From NCBI RefSeq assembly GCF_001644645.1, contig NZ_CP011390.1:2662001-2726000 (forward strand): a DNA stretch of 64,000 bases, read 5' to 3'. Origin of the DNA: Flavisolibacter tropicus (GTDB taxonomy: Bacteria; Bacteroidota; Bacteroidia; Chitinophagales; Chitinophagaceae). The notes under the pieces were generated by a model, which had not been told where the DNA came from, did not search any database, and saw only the letters and a program-made list of their open reading frames with translations. Each line of letters starts with the position of its first letter. Position 1 is the first letter of the stretch. The position numbers were made by a program, and so were the translations under genes. This document shows positions 41,189 to 48,150 of this stretch, one piece after another.

Positions 41189-42410
41189 CCACAAGTGTTC
41201 GAAACCTTGTTTTTAGCTGGAGTTCCAAAGCGGAGCGGCTTTACGGGGATCACCACCACACAGGGTTACAATGGTTTTAATGATTTGGTTTTCCAGTTCA
41301 ATTTCAAATTGCAGTCGGGCAATCTTATAGCTGCTAATGTGATTGAGTTTCTTGTAGGCGATGACCAGGGCCGCTACAATTAAGGTCATGTAGATCATGA
41401 CCTGGATGCCGTTTTCTGTGCGACTGACCAGGTGGGCGGCACTGAGGTGTTGCTTGATAAATCGAAAGAAGACTTCAATGTCCCAGCGCCTGCGGTACCA
41501 TTCGGCCAGGGTGTACGGGTTTTCCTCCATCAGGTTCGTGATCAGCCACAGCGCTTCGCCGTTTTGGGTCAGCGTAGCTTTGATAACCCGGTACGTATAC
41601 TGGGTGGTTTTGCCTTTTCGTTTATAGAGAAAGCCCTCTTCATCACCGTATACCTTAACCGAAGATTGGCGGGGCGCTCGTGGCAAGGGGCGGCAGCGCT
41701 TCAACTGAAAATAAATATTGGTCTTGGTGCGGCCCACAAACCCCTTGCCGGCCGTGGTAAACCGGTCAAAAGCGTCGCGCAACTGCAGGCCCCGGTCAAA
41801 GACCACCACACCGTCTTTTAAGTACGCCGCTTCATCAATGAGGGCGGCCAGCGCCTTGTCTTCACTGATGAAGGTAGACTGGGTATACACCTTGACCGAG
41901 GCGGGTAGGGAGCCCTTTAAAGCCACGCTGTACTTGGTGTGCCCCTTGGTGAGGTTGGGGCCGTTTTGCAGCCCCCCGGCCAACAGGCGGGCCGACAGCG
42001 CCACATAGGTGCTATCGACCCGGGTAAGAGCTTTTTCTTCCCCGAGCACTTTGGTGTAGAGGGCGGACACGGTGGCAAACAGTTTTTCAAAATAGGCAGC
42101 CCGCATGGTGCAGATGCGGTCACGGATGGAATTGTAGCGGCTGTGCAGGGTTTCACTGTGGGCAAAGGACTTAAAGGAGGCGGACGCTAGAAAACTTTCC
42201 ATCACCCGCAGGGAAAGCTTTTCGGAGTTGAGCATCGAAAACAAGATCAGCTTGAACATGATCTCGCCGGAGAGTTTTTTGACCTGGTGGTCCACCTGGG
42301 TGGTAACGGCTAAAGCCCTCAGGCAGCGCGCCGGCAGGAGCTTTAGCAAAGCAGCAGCTGTCATGCTCAATAGACGTTAAACGCCCTGCTAAGGTTTCGA
42401 ACACTTGTGG
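41189..42410 (-). mobile_element. IS4-like insertion sequence
   Basis: 1222 bp with 20-bp perfect terminal inverted repeats (CCACAAGTGTTCGAAACCTT) flanked by a 7-bp direct repeat TTTGCAA (41182-41188 and 42411-42417). It contains one intact transposase gene and sits in the loop of a palindrome inside repeat R. Confidence 0.9.
41213..42364 (-). CDS. IS4-family transposase
   Basis: A DDE transposase of 383 residues from the ATG at 42364. Catalytic Asp candidates are in LTRVDSTYVALSA and VVVFDRGLQLRD, and the IS4 signature Y-x2-R-x3-E-x6-K is seen in EWYRRRWDIEVFFRFIKQHL. The frame is intact and fills most of the element, so the element may still be active. Its GC-rich codon use differs from the flanking genes, a sign of recent arrival. 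Confidence 0.92.
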   Translation of the reverse strand: MTAAALLKLLPARCLRALAVTTQVDHQVKKLSGEIMFKLILFSMLNSEKLSLRVMESFLASASFKSFAHSETLHSRYNSIRDRICTMRAAYFEKLFATVSALYTKVLGEEKALTRVDSTYVALSARLLAGGLQNGPNLTKGHTKYSVALKGSLPASVKVYTQSTFISEDKALAALIDEAAYLKDGVVVFDRGLQLRDAFDRFTTAGKGFVGRTKTNIYFQLKRCRPLPRAPRQSSVKVYGDEEGFLYKRKGKTTQYTYRVIKATLTQNGEALWLITNLMEENPYTLAEWYRRRWDIEVFFRFIKQHLSAAHLVSRTENGIQVMIYMTLIVAALVIAYKKLNHISSYKIARLQFEIELENQIIKTIVTLCGGDPRKAAPLWNSS

Positions 42411-42496: not shown

Positions 42497-42961
42497 TTAT
42501 TGATTTGTTATAAGATCAATCTTTACGGCATCTTTATATGGGCCTCCTAAAATGCCTGGATTTTGTTTCAGTTTCATTAATATAAGGCTACTCACAAGGA
42601 TCGGTGTAATCATAGAAAGGAGTGTGAATAAGCCATCAGTCCACCATTTGTAATCTGATGGCACTCGGTCACCTTTTGTAACTACAAGTATATGCCTCCC
42701 TTGCATTTTTAATACTACCCAATCGAAAAGACGGAAAAAAAGTAAAAAAAGTAAGGGCATGAAGTAACCCACCTCCTGGAAATTAATGTACTTAATCCGG
42801 TAAAAGCCCAATATTGATAGCATACAACCCAAGGCTAAATGAAAAATATATGTCTTTCTTTCAAACAGTCGGTTATAATACTTCTTTTTGGGGTCTAATG
42901 AGAATGCCATCAACATGAATAAAATGTATCCCAACCCTATAAAAAAACTTATAATGAACAT
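42497..42961 (-). CDS. Hypothetical four-helix membrane protein
   Basis: A 154-residue protein with about four membrane helices (about 3-20, 37-55, 66-85, 110-130). I recognise no family. A GCGTACAAC motif lies 12 bp upstream of its start (42973-42981), similar to the core motifs that flank the cassette-like genes further right, but no matching partner was found on its other side. Confidence 0.6.
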   Translation of the reverse strand: MFIISFFIGLGYILFMLMAFSLDPKKKYYNRLFERKTYIFHLALGCMLSILGFYRIKYINFQEVGYFMPLLFLLFFRLFDWVVLKMQGRHILVVTKGDRVPSDYKWWTDGLFTLLSMITPILVSSLILMKLKQNPGILGGPYKDAVKIDLITNQ

Positions 42962-43136: not shown

Positions 43137-43280
43137 ATTTACGCCGTTGAAGGGTCTATGTTTAGCCCACCAACAACATGGTTGAAGATAAACAACTTAT
43201 AGCAGAACCTCTCAACTACGTTCAGTTGTTGGTGCAGCCCAGCACAAGAGCTAAGAGGAACACCAACAACGGCGTAAAAA
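43137..43280. repeat. Nested inverted repeat, possible cassette recombination site
   Basis: Outer arms TTTACGCCGTTG/CAACGGCGTAAA and inner arms CACCAACAAC/GTTGTTGGTG with short TTGA/TCAA-type pairs in between. The layered, imperfect folding resembles an attC site but the core motifs are not canonical. A related sequence GGAACACCAACAAC recurs at about 42468. Confidence 0.35.
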
Positions 43281-43341
43281 AAGCTGATTAGTAGTTTACA
43301 GTCTAAATTTATCCCGTCTGCCTAACTTTTGCAAAACTACT

Positions 43342-44981
43342 GTGCTTGTTGCACAACTCAGCCTCCTAAAGCCACTGTAAAAGTGGTAAATTAAACCATG
43401 CAAGGAAAGAAACCTTTTCAAGACAAGCGCCTTGCTTCCTTCCGCCTCTCGGAGCGGGTGCCGCGTGACAACTTCTACCGCCGCTTAAAAGCAATCATGG
43501 ATGTGGAGTGGCTCTATGAAGCCACCCAAAAGTACTATGGCCGTGAGGGCCACAAATCGCTGGACCCGGTGGTGTTCTTCAAACTCATTTTAATTGGTTA
43601 TCTCGAGAACCTCTTAAGCGATCGAAGAATCATCCAGACCGTCAGCCTGCGCCTGGATCTTTTGTACTTTATCGGTTACTCCCTGGACGAACCGCTGCCC
43701 TGGCATTCTACCATCAGCCGCACGCGTCAACTTCTGGGTGAAGAGGTCTTTAAAGAACTCTTCAAACGGGTCTTACGCCAGTGTGTGCAACAAGGCATGG
43801 TGAAGGGCAAACGCCAGGCCCTGGACTCGGTGCATGTCAAAGCCAATGCGTCGATGGACTCCTTAAAAGAAAAAGAAATTGTGCAGGACGGGGAAGCCTA
43901 TGCAGGTGAACTCGGTGAAGATGCAGAGGACGAAGAGCAAACAGAAAAGCAAACCGTCTCCGTCTTCAAACACCAGCAAGTGCAGTGGCATCACGGCTGG
44001 AAGCGGAAGGCCTACAAAGGGCGGCCCAGTGGTGGATGGCGGGCTCGCTTTGTCTCCAACCACACCCACTACAGCACTACCGATGGGGATGCCCGTGTGG
44101 CCGTCAAACCCGGCAAGCCCCGCCAGTTAAACTATTTGGGGCAACTCAGTGTCGATACCGCCCATCACGTTATTACTTGTATACAGGCCGACTATGCCAG
44201 TAAAAAAGACTCGCAGTGTTTGCCCTCATTACTCCGGCATACCATTGACAATGTAAAGGCGGTAGGCTTAAAAGTAAAAGAAGTACTCTGCGATGCGGGC
44301 TACTCCTCTTCGGAGGCCCTAAAAGCACTGAAGCAGTACCGTGTCACCGGCTATATCCCCAACTTTGGGCAATATAAACCCACCCGGGAAGGCTTCCGCT
44401 ATTTTGCCGGCGGGGATTATTACCAATGCTCCCGGGGAGTAAGGCTTCCTTTTAAACGCATCAAGGACTCTCATGATGGCACGTACCAGATGCGGGTCTA
44501 CAGAAGCAGTTCTTTGGATTGCAGGAACTGCCCTTTGAGAAAAACCTGTATTGGTAAAAGTGATTTTAAAAAGATTGAAGACACTGTAGACAAACCCCTC
44601 TATGATGAGATGCATCTCCGGCTACAAACCCGCAAAGCCAAACGTATGAAACGGCTTAGGCAAGCCACCGTCGAACCGGTGATTGGTACCCTGGTGAACT
44701 TTTTAGGGATGCGACGAGTGAACACAAGAGGCATCCAGCTGGCCAACAAGTGTTTGCTGATGGCCGCCGTGTGTTATAATTTGAAAAGACTCCTAAAATG
44801 GATGGGGGAAGCCGAAGGCAAAGGCGAAAAAACGCTTGGCCAGCTACTGGTTATGCTGTACTGGCTACCGGTTCTCTACAGCCGAAGAGGAGAGCAAATA
44901 CAAACCAGCTTAAGCTACGCTTGCTAAAATCAAAAAACCACATACAAATACTGTTTTAGTTCCGAGTTGTGCAACAGCCAC
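43342..44981 (+). mobile_element. IS1182-like insertion sequence
   Basis: About 1640 bp with imperfect inverted ends containing TGTTGCACAACTC, flanked by the 4-bp direct repeat TACT (43338-43341 and 44982-44985). It contains one intact transposase. It lies between the motifs GCCTAAC (43320) and GTTGGCTGC (44986), that is, in or next to a cassette-type recombination site. Confidence 0.85.
43398..44927 (+). CDS. IS1182-family transposase
   Basis: A 509-residue transposase. The N-terminal domain (RLSERVPRDNFYRRLKAIMDVEWLYEATQKYYG) and the DDE core (QALDSVHVKANAS; VKEVLCDAGYSS; a C-terminal VEPVIGTLVNFLGMRR) are those of IS1182/IS5-type proteins. A charged low-complexity insert (ELGEDAEDEEQTEKQ) lies near residue 175. 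The frame is intact and GC-rich compared with neighbouring genes. Confidence 0.92.
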   Translation: MQGKKPFQDKRLASFRLSERVPRDNFYRRLKAIMDVEWLYEATQKYYGREGHKSLDPVVFFKLILIGYLENLLSDRRIIQTVSLRLDLLYFIGYSLDEPLPWHSTISRTRQLLGEEVFKELFKRVLRQCVQQGMVKGKRQALDSVHVKANASMDSLKEKEIVQDGEAYAGELGEDAEDEEQTEKQTVSVFKHQQVQWHHGWKRKAYKGRPSGGWRARFVSNHTHYSTTDGDARVAVKPGKPRQLNYLGQLSVDTAHHVITCIQADYASKKDSQCLPSLLRHTIDNVKAVGLKVKEVLCDAGYSSSEALKALKQYRVTGYIPNFGQYKPTREGFRYFAGGDYYQCSRGVRLPFKRIKDSHDGTYQMRVYRSSSLDCRNCPLRKTCIGKSDFKKIEDTVDKPLYDEMHLRLQTRKAKRMKRLRQATVEPVIGTLVNFLGMRRVNTRGIQLANKCLLMAAVCYNLKRLLKWMGEAEGKGEKTLGQLLVMLYWLPVLYSRRGEQIQTSLSYAC

Positions 44982-44985
44982 TACT

Positions 44986-44994
44986 GTTGGCTGC
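44986..44994. other. Cassette-type core motif left of gene C
   Basis: GTTGGCTGC; it is the exact reverse complement of GCAGCCAAC at 45676-45684 on the other side of the gene at 45004. Confidence 0.45.
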
Positions 44995-45003
44995 CGTAGA
45001 GCA

Positions 45004-45642
45004 TTAGGTAACTTGCACCTCGTTACTCCATTGCAAATACCCTTCTCCGTCGTAAGCTCGGACAAAGAACGAAACAACATTTGAGGCGAAGCTTTTCAAT
45101 TGTTCACTATTCAAAGAATTGAATGAAGAAAAGCCGTTTTGGCTGTCAATAGGCAACGAACTCAGGGCGCAAAGAAAGTAATAACCTTCACTAGTCCTGA
45201 ATGAATCTTCAAACTCTTGTGGTTCAGCATCCTTGTTAAAGAAGTAATACATTTCGTCATTGAGATACACATACTTCATTTGAGAAGGTTCCACCCATGG
45301 GTCTGTTGGCTTTCCATGTGCTTCTTCAAACAAACAGCAGTGTTCTTTGTTCTGGCGTAGGTATTGAAGAATGTCGTTGATTACAACGGGTCTTGCATCA
45401 TTTTGAACAGGAACTAATGCGGGAGTATTTTGAAGTAAACTTCTATCGAAGGGATAAATTCCGCCTGTCTCAAACCTATACAAGAGCTCCGAGGGCGCGT
45501 TCTCGGGCACATAGGTAAATACTTTTCCTTTCAACAAAGATTTCGAAAGCAATTGGTTTGCCAGTGTTTTACCGGAAATGTCAAGTTGCTCTTGGATGTA
45601 TGCAAATGCTTGTGGAGAGGTTATGTCTACTCGTTTTATCAT
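45004..45642 (-). CDS. Cassette-like hypothetical protein (gene C)
   Basis: A 212-residue soluble protein without recognised domain (MIKRVDITSPQAFAYIQEQLD..). It is flanked by the inverted core pair GTTGGCTGC (44986) and GCAGCCAAC (45676), which is what is expected when a cassette carries its own two halves of a recombination site. The IS1182-like element lies immediately downstream (left). No promoter is visible of its own. Confidence 0.65.
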   Translation of the reverse strand: MIKRVDITSPQAFAYIQEQLDISGKTLANQLLSKSLLKGKVFTYVPENAPSELLYRFETGGIYPFDRSLLQNTPALVPVQNDARPVVINDILQYLRQNKEHCCLFEEAHGKPTDPWVEPSQMKYVYLNDEMYYFFNKDAEPQEFEDSFRTSEGYYFLCALSSLPIDSQNGFSSFNSLNSEQLKSFASNVVSFFVRAYDGEGYLQWSNEVQVT

Positions 45643-45675
45643 GCTTTAAAGAAATGTCACCGTAAACGACCAATA

Positions 45676-45812
45676 GCAGCCAACGAGGAAGGGCTTTAAG
45701 AGGGTCGGGAATTTGGAAAACTATCGATCTTCTTTAGCACCTTCGTTGACTATTGTTTTGCAGCTGAAAGATAGCTATTCAGCCAGACTTTTTTAAAGCC
45801 CATGTTATACGC
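45676..45812 (-). other. attC-like folded site between genes C and B
   Basis: 137 bp bounded by GCAGCCAAC and GTTATACGC. Inside, 16-nt arms 45691-45706 and 45786-45801 (GGGCTTTAAGAGGGTC/GACTTTTTTAAAGCCC) pair with only G-T type mismatches on one strand. Outer AAC..GTT cores, inner arms and length resemble a large integron attC site. The central sequence is not conserved with the next site. Confidence 0.45.
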
Positions 45813-45818
45813 ATCTTA

Positions 45819-46304
45819 TTATGGCGTATGGCGAGTAATCCCACCGTATTCAATATTGTAGCCATTGGAATATTGATTTATTGCTTCCGCTATTTCATGG
45901 AATGTTTTATCTAAGTCTGAAACATTTAATTTGATTCTTCTGTTGTGTTCTGTCGTTTCAATAAACATAAAGTAAGAAGCAACTTTATGATGCCAGCTTT
46001 CAAAATAAAACCTTTGTACTATGTTCCAAGGAATCACTTTTCTCCTTTTTGGCCAAATACCTTGATGGTTTACAATGAGACTGGCAGTTTTATCTAATAG
46101 CGAATACCACAGATAAGCAGTTATTAAAGCAAATATTACAACCACAATCACGATTCTTTTTGAAGCAAACCAAGATTGGCTATGGAAATAAATTAGCATC
46201 AGTGCCAGCACTGTTGAAAAGAAGATTGCATATACTTTGTACTGCCAACCATCTCGTTTTGCAATAAACTCATTTACTTGAGAAACTGTGTTTGAGGGAT
46301 GCAT
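45819..46304 (-). CDS. Cassette-like membrane protein (gene B)
   Basis: A 161-residue protein with two membrane helices (about 25-42 and 50-68) and a C-terminal domain that looks like a PH-like (YcxB/bPH-type) fold: SLIVNHQGIWPKRRKVIPWNIVQRFYFESWHH. Function unknown. It is bracketed by GTTATACGC (45804) and its exact reverse complement GCGTATAAC (46314). Confidence 0.65.
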   Translation of the reverse strand: MHPSNTVSQVNEFIAKRDGWQYKVYAIFFSTVLALMLIYFHSQSWFASKRIVIVVVIFALITAYLWYSLLDKTASLIVNHQGIWPKRRKVIPWNIVQRFYFESWHHKVASYFMFIETTEHNRRIKLNVSDLDKTFHEIAEAINQYSNGYNIEYGGITRHTP

Positions 46305-46313
46305 GATAAAGTT

Positions 46314-46448
46314 GCGTATAACGCAGAAAGCATTTACGAAGGCATGGCATTACTTGATTCAGCTTCATTTGCGTTCTGTAGTTGATAAAGATATAGCGTT
46401 TAGCCGTTGTTCAAAAGCCATGCTTTTGTGAATGCTATGTTAGGCGTA
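46314..46448 (-). other. attC-like folded site between genes B and A
   Basis: 135 bp bounded by GCGTATAAC and GTTAGGCGTA. 20-nt arms 46329-46348 (AGCATTTACGAAGGCATGGC) and 46417-46436 pair at 17 of 20 positions, the other three being G-T pairs on one strand. On the minus strand it reads GCCTAAC (canonical RYYYAAC) to GTTATAC (one change from GTTRRRY), following gene A as an attC follows its cassette gene. Confidence 0.5.
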
Positions 46449-46453
46449 GGCAA

Positions 46454-46888
46454 TCAGTGTTTTGCGTCTTTAATGTCACTATACAGTCTCTGTAGTTCAA
46501 TACTATTTGACCAGCCTGCGCTTTCTTTCATAGCTATGATTATAAACTGTTGCAATTCGTTCAAAGACTTGGTTGCTCCTTTAACCCTGGCATTTGGCCA
46601 AGGCTCCTTATCTGGTGTCATGAGATACTCGATGTAATATTCATCTTCCAGTCCATTTATGGCAACGAACCAAGGACTAAGCGAACTGTCTTCGGAAAGC
46701 AGCAATAAAGTTGCGTGTGATGTAAGACCATAAATCTCTGTCTCAGGAAATGTGTCATTGAGCAGGTTTAGAACTTTCAACATCGGTGTGCCGACATCAG
46801 CAAACGTTTTGACCTTGTCTGGAATAAACTCCGCATAGAATTCCTCCAAGGTTTGTCGCTTTTGTTCAGAGCATCGCTTTATTCCCAT
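46454..46888 (-). CDS. Cassette-like hypothetical protein (gene A)
   Basis: A 144-residue acidic, soluble protein (MGIKRCSEQKRQTLEEFYAE..) with no recognised domain. Start and stop are within 30 bp of the matched core pair GTTAGGCGTA (46439) and TACGCCTAAC (46915), which agree over 10 bp and beyond (GGC/GC extensions). Expression would depend on an outside promoter. Confidence 0.65.
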   Translation of the reverse strand: MGIKRCSEQKRQTLEEFYAEFIPDKVKTFADVGTPMLKVLNLLNDTFPETEIYGLTSHATLLLLSEDSSLSPWFVAINGLEDEYYIEYLMTPDKEPWPNARVKGATKSLNELQQFIIIAMKESAGWSNSIELQRLYSDIKDAKH

Positions 46889-46914
46889 TTTAATTCTTAG
46901 TTATTTATCTTGCT

Positions 46915-47089
46915 TACGCCTAACGCATAAATATACGAACCCAAGTTCGTTTATCGTTACATTACAAATCGCTTGCACATAAGGTGAAAACCAAGGCCTT
47001 GCAGGTTCGCTTTTTTGTAGCCACTCCCACGTGTCCTAGCTCTTTTTTGTCCTTCCGGCTACAAGGAAACGAACTGTATTATGTTAAAC
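46915..47089 (-). other. Possible attC-like or end site right of gene A
   Basis: Begins TACGCCTAAC (canonical RYYYAAC core). A short hairpin follows (ACGAACCCAAGTTCGT, about 46934-46949), and a GTTAAAC motif that fits GTTRRRY lies at 47083. Pairing arms are weaker (AGTTCGTTT with AAACGAACT), so the right boundary is uncertain; this could mark the edge of the array. Confidence 0.3.
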
Positions 47090-47220
47090 AGGCTACCCAA
47101 AAAACGAACCTGCCTATTACCGCAACAACCTATTCAGCAGACTGAATATAAGACCCGATGCATAGCCGATAAAACTTATATCTCACAGTTTTTCTTCTAC
47201 CCCTTTGATCCCCCTTTTCT

Positions 47221-47363: not shown

Positions 47364-48005
47364 ATGGCAAAACTTCCGCAGGGCATTATGGGACCTCTTG
47401 TTGGTACCGCAGGCCCCATAACCGGTTATCTGCGCTTAGGGATACCGGTAGTTCGTTCTAAAACCCGCCCCAATTCTTTCAAACCCACCGCAGCCCGCAC
47501 CGCCCAGCAACGCAAACTGCAGTTGGTATTACCCTTTATTAAATCCTTTACCGGCACCGGCTTTTTGAAAAAGAGCTTTCCCATTGGCACAGAAGGTAGT
47601 ACCGGCTACAACCGCGCCTTGAGCCAAACCATGAATGGCGCCTTGGTGGGTAGTGATCCAGACTTGTTACTTGCCTATCCGTTGGTACTGGTCTCACGCG
47701 GTAGCCTGCCCAAGGCGGCAGCGCCAACCGTAATAGTGGAGGCTGATGGAAACCTGCGCTTTCGCTGGGAAGATAACAGTACAACCGGCAAAGCCAAAGC
47801 AACCGACATGGTGCTGCTAGTGGCGTATTTCCCTGACCTGGAGCAGGTAATCTGCTCTACTGAAGCGGCCTACAGAAGCGAGGGAGAAGCCTTGCTACAA
47901 ACCAATAACCTGCGCGGCCAAAAGGCAGAAACATGGATGGGTTTTATCAATGAGGATGCTACCGATGCCAGTGATAGTGTTTATACGGGAACAGTGCTGC
48001 TGTAA
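47364..48005 (+). CDS. DUF6266-like protein
   Basis: A 213-residue protein of the Bacteroidota family DUF6266: MAKLPQGIMGPLVGTAGPITGY, then RPNSFKPTAARTAQQRKLQLVLPFIK, NRALSQTMNGAL and a C-terminal beta-rich domain with ETWMGFINEDA. The function of this family is not known. It has no signal peptide. It lies just right of the accessory region, preceded by the iteron-like repeat and a dyad. Confidence 0.8.
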   Translation: MAKLPQGIMGPLVGTAGPITGYLRLGIPVVRSKTRPNSFKPTAARTAQQRKLQLVLPFIKSFTGTGFLKKSFPIGTEGSTGYNRALSQTMNGALVGSDPDLLLAYPLVLVSRGSLPKAAAPTVIVEADGNLRFRWEDNSTTGKAKATDMVLLVAYFPDLEQVICSTEAAYRSEGEALLQTNNLRGQKAETWMGFINEDATDASDSVYTGTVLL

Positions 48006-48069: not shown

Positions 48070-48150
48070 ATTAAGTTGGCAGAGGACAGTTGACAGTTGA
48101 CAGAGTTCTACTATCATCTGTCAACTGTCCTCTGTCAACAAACTGGCATT
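48070..48150. repeat. Hairpin repeat after DUF6266
   Basis: Perfect 16-bp arms AGAGGACAGTTGACAG (48081-48096) and CTGTCAACTGTCCTCT (48118-48133). A related hairpin (TCATCTATCAACTGCC.. and GATAACAG/CTGTTATC arms) is found at about 51345-51415. It can serve as terminator. Confidence 0.55.

Follow-up and report, generated by a model that had tools for sequence, protein, structure and literature searches.

An integron-like cassette array in Flavisolibacter tropicus and a candidate Xer/XerA-like integrase with relatives across Bacteroidota

The closest described counterparts of the system reported here are integrons, in which a tyrosine recombinase (IntI) lies next to an attI site that heads a same-strand array of gene-plus-site cassettes. 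The integrase gene and the array are usually divergent. Gammaproteobacteria hold 93% of complete integrons, and the available text of the IntegronFinder 2.0 report gives a single complete integron for Bacteroidetes proper, that of Salinibacter ruber (PMC9024848). Integron-like tyrosine recombinases with an incompletely conserved integron-specific insertion form a described subgroup, for which the available text mentions no arrays or sites comparable to those below (PMC8138268). A third parallel comes from Riemerella anatipestifer, which takes up the aph(3')-IVb gene without flanking homology by a mechanism that is unknown (2026; PMC13148043, cited throughout from its available text). The gene always integrates with 27 bp before it and 140 bp after it, the latter with an attC-like fold (PMC13148043). 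Here we examined a stretch of 64,000 nucleotides from the chromosome of Flavisolibacter tropicus (NZ_CP011390.1, positions 2,662,001 to 2,726,000; hereafter the window), which very probably holds a three-cassette, integrase-less array of an integron-like system of Bacteroidota, the site of its third cassette being interrupted. The array is a real integron-like cassette array that, judged from sequence, would work like an integron, although its candidate recombinase falls outside IntI as defined by the additional domain of that enzyme. Among the matches listed in the open-licence literature, a scope that leaves preprints and most subscription papers outside, the available texts gave no description of the system.

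Three minus-strand genes of the window (A, B and C; Table 1) are each enclosed by an inverted pair of 9-base cores, with a different core for each gene, so that the start of each cassette is complementary to its own 3' core, as in integrons. The pairs are GTTAGGCGT for cassette A (46916-46924 and 46439-46447), GTTATACGC for cassette B (46314-46322 and 45804-45812) and GTTGGCTGC for cassette C (45676-45684 and 44986-44994). An earlier note on this DNA had described all three correctly, and the spacers that it put at about 135 bp are indeed of that length. Inverted 9-mer pairs alone are no evidence because chance produces many of them (the window has 23 versus 13.5 in Markov sequences); what counts is their chaining. 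The whole window has three end-to-end chains of pairs, including two at the array, versus 0.4 expected. Chance inverted repeats are thus ruled out as an account of the array by the chains and not by the number of pairs. A covariance model (R2) with 28 training sites, all from other genomes and none from the source genome, detected the B/C site at E 5e-16 and the A/B site at E 4e-13. Another model (R1) was built from the short class of sites described below, including the window's own, so only R2 tests the window; R1 found no further full-length site at E < 0.1 within the 64 kb.

The note had also described imperfect hairpins with G-T pairs on one strand. The A/B site folds better on the plus strand, opposite the genes (minimum free energy as DNA, MFE, -19.1 versus -13.3; z -2.07 versus -0.49); for the B/C site the strands are nearly equal (MFE -17.7 versus -17.0; z -1.77 and -1.75). 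Searches yielded no function for genes A, B and C. Gene B had only weak profile matches, all below cut-offs, and one homolog (59%) besides itself among 5.8 billion database proteins; gene C had no Pfam match and no match at E ≤ 0.001 across 97 other genomes of the family. The liaF-kinase-regulator flank of the array is kept in 10/10 congeneric loci and the array side is unrelated. Conserved synteny, which the note would have held against cassettes, does not apply here, as no open reading frame (ORF) of the 41-48 kb region was found in any of the ten loci. The same loci contained no exact empty site for any of the three cassettes, the relatives being too distant.

Five tyrosine recombinases were found in the chromosome (5.94 Mb, one contig), all outside the window and none near the array. 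The impression that no integrase is in view is therefore correct for the window and not for the chromosome, where a 389-residue recombinase is encoded about 394 kb away (C1:3103031-3104197). Like an integron integrase, it has an attI-like head and a same-strand array of its own, which begins 192 nt behind the gene with the matched cores GTTGTGTGC, GTTGTACGC and GTTAGCGGC, followed by an insertion sequence (IS) copy and then by GTTGTACGT and more sites. Unlike the divergent layout of integrons, the 3' end of the recombinase gene faces the attI-like site. The protein is the best scorer of the five on the integron integrase profile TIGR02249 (177 bits, cut-off 265), and it reaches 115.4 bits on NF011946 (cut-off 435) and 207.8 bits on NF040815, 'site-specific tyrosine recombinase/integron integrase' (cut-off 220). 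XerA/Xer (NF040815) is the best match in sequence and fold, with 4a8e and 5hxy leading the fold matches listed, and NCBI gives the NF040815 name to some relatives. The fold lists do not cover every family, so that a family missing from them carries no weight. What sets the protein apart from XerA/Xer is an extra N-terminal domain of ~80-110 residues, an SPLD tail and a position beside cassette arrays. The extra domain also distinguishes it from IntI, as does the absence of the IntI additional domain around patch III (22 residues versus 65 in IntI4). Furthermore, the K-to-HxxR spacing is 64-70 residues in 43/43 recombinases of the two locus sets described below and 106 in 10/10 IntI (L066 and 2 of 12 IntI loci have no row in this comparison). 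The search that the earlier note had proposed, for a recombinase with the integron-specific patch, thus led to a recombinase that heads an array and has no patch. We regard the 389-residue protein as the likely integrase serving the window array.

Relatives of this recombinase are widespread. Strong matches (E ≤ 1e-40) occur in 71/195 genomes of the family and matches at E ≤ 1e-55 in 103/395 of the wider phylum. Of up to 8,000 candidate proteins taken from a database, 7,934 match at E ≤ 1e-20, so that the family has at least this many members there. Twenty-five loci (first set: L012, L014-L017, L048-L067) carry 120 chained cassettes in 222 kb downstream of the recombinase gene versus 0.4 in Markov controls; the roughly 71 kb upstream of it hold none. 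These counts come from strict chaining, many k=8 chains of a looser scan being due to chance; the two chained units of L064 have A/T-rich cores and may also be chance. Chains follow the recombinase in 19 of the 25 loci, and the array starts within a few hundred bases of its 3' side in many. In a second set of 19 loci, all outside the family, 44 chained cassettes were found versus 0 expected, with chains in 10/19. R1, which was not trained on loci outside the family, made 31 matches there at E ≤ 1e-5. The suggestion of a Bacteroidota-specific system stands in that the system is centered on Bacteroidota, and is amended in that it spans many families of the phylum. Within the family, R1 matches sites in 67/71 genomes with the recombinase and 55/124 without (Fisher p 1.8e-13), or 55/59 versus 55/124 once the 12 training genomes are removed (p 2.4e-11). 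At E ≤ 1e-5 it matches at least 122/195 genomes; at most 16 candidates per genome were scored under strict filters, which makes the family-wide counts lower bounds. One contig (G181:C8, its first 20 kb being L117) has short-class sites on one strand over ~95 kb and is superintegron-like in appearance.

The sites themselves are structured and covarying and favor folding of the bottom strand, as attC sites do. The set comprises 94 distinct sites from the first locus set, with two from the window. The base preceding GTT is C in 91/94 and the base following AAC is A in 91/94. This context and a core that is mostly GTT[AG][GT]nnG[CT] differ from integrons; the integron consensus GTTRRRY fits 11/171 cores, which bears out the earlier remark that the cores are divergent. 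Spacers cluster near 118, 153 and 183 nt. The bottom strand folds better in 69/94 sites (binomial p 6e-6), or 66/91 without the window and L064. The consensus stem of the short class (31 sites) has 21 pairs, 14 of them with compensatory double changes, and 93.5% of its cells are paired versus 70.4% in shuffled and 34-49% in slid alignments. In 31/31 short-class sites the bottom strand has G-T as its core-adjacent pair, where the top strand would have C-A. The note's expectation of more site pairs in the genome was borne out by 39 R1 matches at E ≤ 1, of which 34 have E ≤ 0.002 (three of these are training sites). Unlike in integrons, the sites are dispersed, lying at about 19 places in the source genome.

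The 171 cassettes have a median unit of 824 bp, and their longest ORF is in sense in 156, antisense in 7 and short or absent in 8. Certain cassettes are tandemly duplicated or present four times within one array. As in integrons, a single cassette recurs in three contexts, and its ends are exact. Two loci (L106 and L108), whose recombinases differ considerably, have the first cassette of ~1,050 bp in common (97.5% identical), their flanks have 0.48 and 0.49 identity, and the similarity breaks immediately before GTT. The gene that it carries resembles Lnu(H) (452 bits, under the strict cut-off of 540). The same cassette, annotated as lnu(I), is on an R. anatipestifer plasmid (97.5% identical to L108 and 99.8% to L106). 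Flanks in the three contexts have 0.44-0.50 identity; random pairs average 0.45-0.47. The comparison indicates that cassettes move singly and with exact ends.

The Riemerella plasmid, pRCAD0416RA-1 (L134), links the system to drug resistance, since cassettes of the same kind carry resistance genes in this duck pathogen. In 19 kb of it R1 makes 12 site matches at E ≤ 2.5e-9, R2 detects the same 12, and all are in the strand orientation expected of plus-strand cassettes. Nine of the 12 immediately follow a gene or a pair of genes, in most cases resistance genes: aadS, tet(X), lnu(I), relE/helix-turn-helix (HTH), blaOXA, a second tet(X), estT, a phosphotransferase gene and APH(3'). The three others lie within stretches that have no listed sense gene; ere(D) there is antisense. 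Strain RCAD0416 is named as a plasmid carrier of aph(3')-IVb (PMC13148043). The predicted aph(3') cassette on this plasmid has flanks of 29 and 138 nt, with the same sum (167) as the published 27 and 140; the shift is expected if the junction was read two bases into GTT. Its product has 262 residues by coordinates, as in PMC13148043. The homology-independent capture reported there for aph(3')-IVb, lnu(H) and blaRATA resembles the present system in its unit of gene plus attC-like hairpin, its 167-bp flank total and its lnu cassette, found here within recombinase arrays; it differs in that the available text reports no integron and names no recombinase (PMC13148043). The relE/HTH pair, which looks like a toxin-antitoxin pair, is itself a cassette on the plasmid. 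As relE and hthR are the markers at the insertion site in ATCC 11845 (PMC13148043), that site may be an existing array.

We have little doubt that the window array belongs to a Bacteroidota integron-like system with an Xer/XerA-like recombinase as its likely integrase. In the mechanism that we propose, the bottom strand of a site would become single-stranded and fold as an imperfect hairpin, in the order R'' ending in AAC, A, and a stem of 16 pairs in 19 columns with G-T pairs, then, in the short class, a loop of ~70 nt, about 5-8 nt and C-GTT of R'. Recombinase molecules, presumably of the 389-residue protein, would bind the stem and cut at or within GTT, and the gene-plus-site unit would be transferred to attI or to another site. 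In several Chitinophagaceae a -7-like box immediately precedes the attI-like site, elsewhere another AT-rich box does, and such a box may act as a promoter and make the inserted gene transcribable. Arrays without an integrase, the window's included, would be served in trans.

Several observations weigh against this reading. Recombination is deduced from sequence and was not seen directly. Strand preference fails in 25/94 sites, and the B/C site shows it to a negligible degree. Six of the 25 loci of the first set lack a chain (five have < 1.4 kb downstream, L052 has 12.5 kb), as do 9/19 loci outside the family. Four of the 71 family genomes with the recombinase lack a site match, and 55/124 genomes without a strong recombinase match still have sites, for which we propose draft assemblies, diverged recombinases or another enzyme. 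An SOS box (CTAAN5TTAG) was found upstream of the recombinase in 0/25 loci, and GGAN5TCC in one. The box TAnnTTT is present in just 8/21 heads. Lastly, a recombinase relative and a true IntI occur together in some genomes from other classes (e.g., G209).

The sites in genomes without a strong recombinase match, together with the two other Xer-like recombinases of the source genome (298 and 301 residues, which we take to be XerC and XerD), are what could be said for sites that are real and mobile but owe their recombination to a different enzyme, for instance XerC/XerD, with the 389-residue protein simply nearby. We consider this unlikely because arrays start closely behind the recombinase gene in many loci and not upstream of it. 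Furthermore, on a Chryseobacterium plasmid (L135) four sites follow a relative of the recombinase. The array on this plasmid also contains a group II intron (L135:14735-16051). Associations of group II introns with attC sites are known.

It is still less probable that the array is a remnant, of the type called a cluster of attC sites lacking integron integrases (CALIN), of a classical IntI/attC integron from another lineage. The overall anatomy is the same, the SP-x-D tail is common to IntI and these recombinases, and true IntI scores above the cut-off in 105/395 genomes of the wider phylum. However, the 107 genomes with an IntI match include a single one of the same order (G228) and none of the family, the others being labeled only as same phylum. 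The IntI domain is missing from all 43 recombinase rows, few cores follow GTTRRRY, and R1 is nearly silent on 11 true-IntI loci (209 kb), with two matches at E < 1e-6, one at 1.1e-4 and the next best at 0.0014; the top three come from a single genome that also has a broken recombinase relative. In a tree, IntI splits from the other recombinases (93/81), the root not being fixed, and the array recombinases need three changes because long-branched Xer-like rows fall among them. One IntI locus (L144, G313) has seven chained cassettes downstream on the same strand, with spacers of 207-212 nt. Transposon-like units or terminator hairpins, with the pairs as terminal repeats or chance matches, can be dismissed with near certainty: chance pairs are common and the sites do lie at gene 3' ends, but core pairs mostly differ between neighboring cassettes, chaining is far above chance, the spacers form classes, and the units end exactly against unrelated flanks.

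At its broadest, the reading that the 389-residue protein and its relatives act as integrases probably amounts to a second kind of integron over Bacteroidota, with a patch-less Xer/XerA-derived integrase, the N-terminal domain of which may be HARP/XPB-DRD-like in fold, that reads folded sites and serves dispersed attI-headed arrays in trans. The system would also supply the missing machinery of homology-independent resistance capture (tet(X), OXA, estT, lnu, aph) by Riemerella and its relatives, and environmental chromosomal arrays would be one reservoir. If true, cassette arrays across Bacteroidota are run by a family of recombinases that numbers thousands of relatives, many of them next to arrays, and that was overlooked for want of the IntI domain, the feature used to recognize integron integrases. 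The IntI domain would then not be the sole route to the use of folded sites, and there would be a common vehicle in Bacteroidota for tet(X), OXA, estT, lnu and aph genes. The open question of PMC13148043 would likewise be answered by a testable enzyme family. The earlier idea of integron-like cassettes thus holds for the matched cores, the covarying sites and the mobile units, and not for the recombinase, which is without the IntI additional domain.

Table 1. Coordinates of the array features within the window
Feature	Position	Strand	Description
Cassette A	46323..46924	-	Gene A (46454-46888, 144 residues, no Pfam match) and attC-like site
attC-like site A/B	46314..46447	+	134 bp, cores included; folding strand +; R2 69.0 bits
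Cassette B	45685..46322	-	Gene B (45819-46304, 161 residues) and its own site
attC-like site B/C	45676..45812	+	137 bp, cores included; strands fold about equally; R2 82.3 bits
Cassette C	44986..45684	-	Gene C (45004-45642, 212 residues); extends to R'' core, remainder of site separated by IS
IS1182-like element	43342..44981	+	509-residue transposase (43398-44927); inserted 4 nt after R'' AAC of C
Probable remnant of C's site beyond IS	43276..43341	+	Weak: model positions 63-108 match 43276-43321, 17.8 bits, E 0.022
attI-like head	46925..46949	-	Inverted repeat CGAAC/GTTCG, then TATATTTA, then cassette junction between GC and GTTAGG
Head element	46999..47110	-	112 bp, upstream of attI-like site; related copies at 3 other genome places

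The head of the window array contains TATATTTA, which we take to be a -7-like box of Bacteroidota. AT-rich sequence is similar among attI-like heads, and TAnnTTT within 22 nt is more frequent in heads than in 171 internal cassette ends (12) or random 22-mers (5.5%). The motif TTCGTATATTT before GTT is common to the window head and to the stretch between the recombinase gene and its first cassette. Copies of the head element are at C1:476778 (85%, 67 bp), 3102909 (75%, 112 bp) and 1923635 (74%, 112 bp), and one copy sits between the integrase gene and the integrase's own array.

The element that splits the site of C is presumably of the IS1182 family. Nine copies were located by one element end, and 9/9 lie exactly four bases past AAC, in the order AACANNN and then the IS. 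At least five of the nine border an R1-recognized site, besides the window's own copy. The element is thus an IS that targets attC-like sites. The known attC-targeting elements are the IS1111 group, which it resembles in insertion habit and from which it differs in IS family.

We also identified other features beside the array. An inverted repeat of GTTGACAG-like units spans 48074-48140 of the window; the Rfam matches in the region (mir-641 and others), most of them on this repeat, have scores below gathering thresholds, the microRNA matches among them, and were rejected. A DUF6266 protein (47364-48005) adjoins the window array, and a 192-residue MAK..GP.. protein (L012:11428-12006, no Pfam match) that is DUF6266-like in look adjoins the integrase gene. 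Gene D (42497-42961, 154 residues) starts after a GTTGTACGC core and may represent another cassette; a DDE (PF01609) transposase gene (41213-42370) adjoins it.

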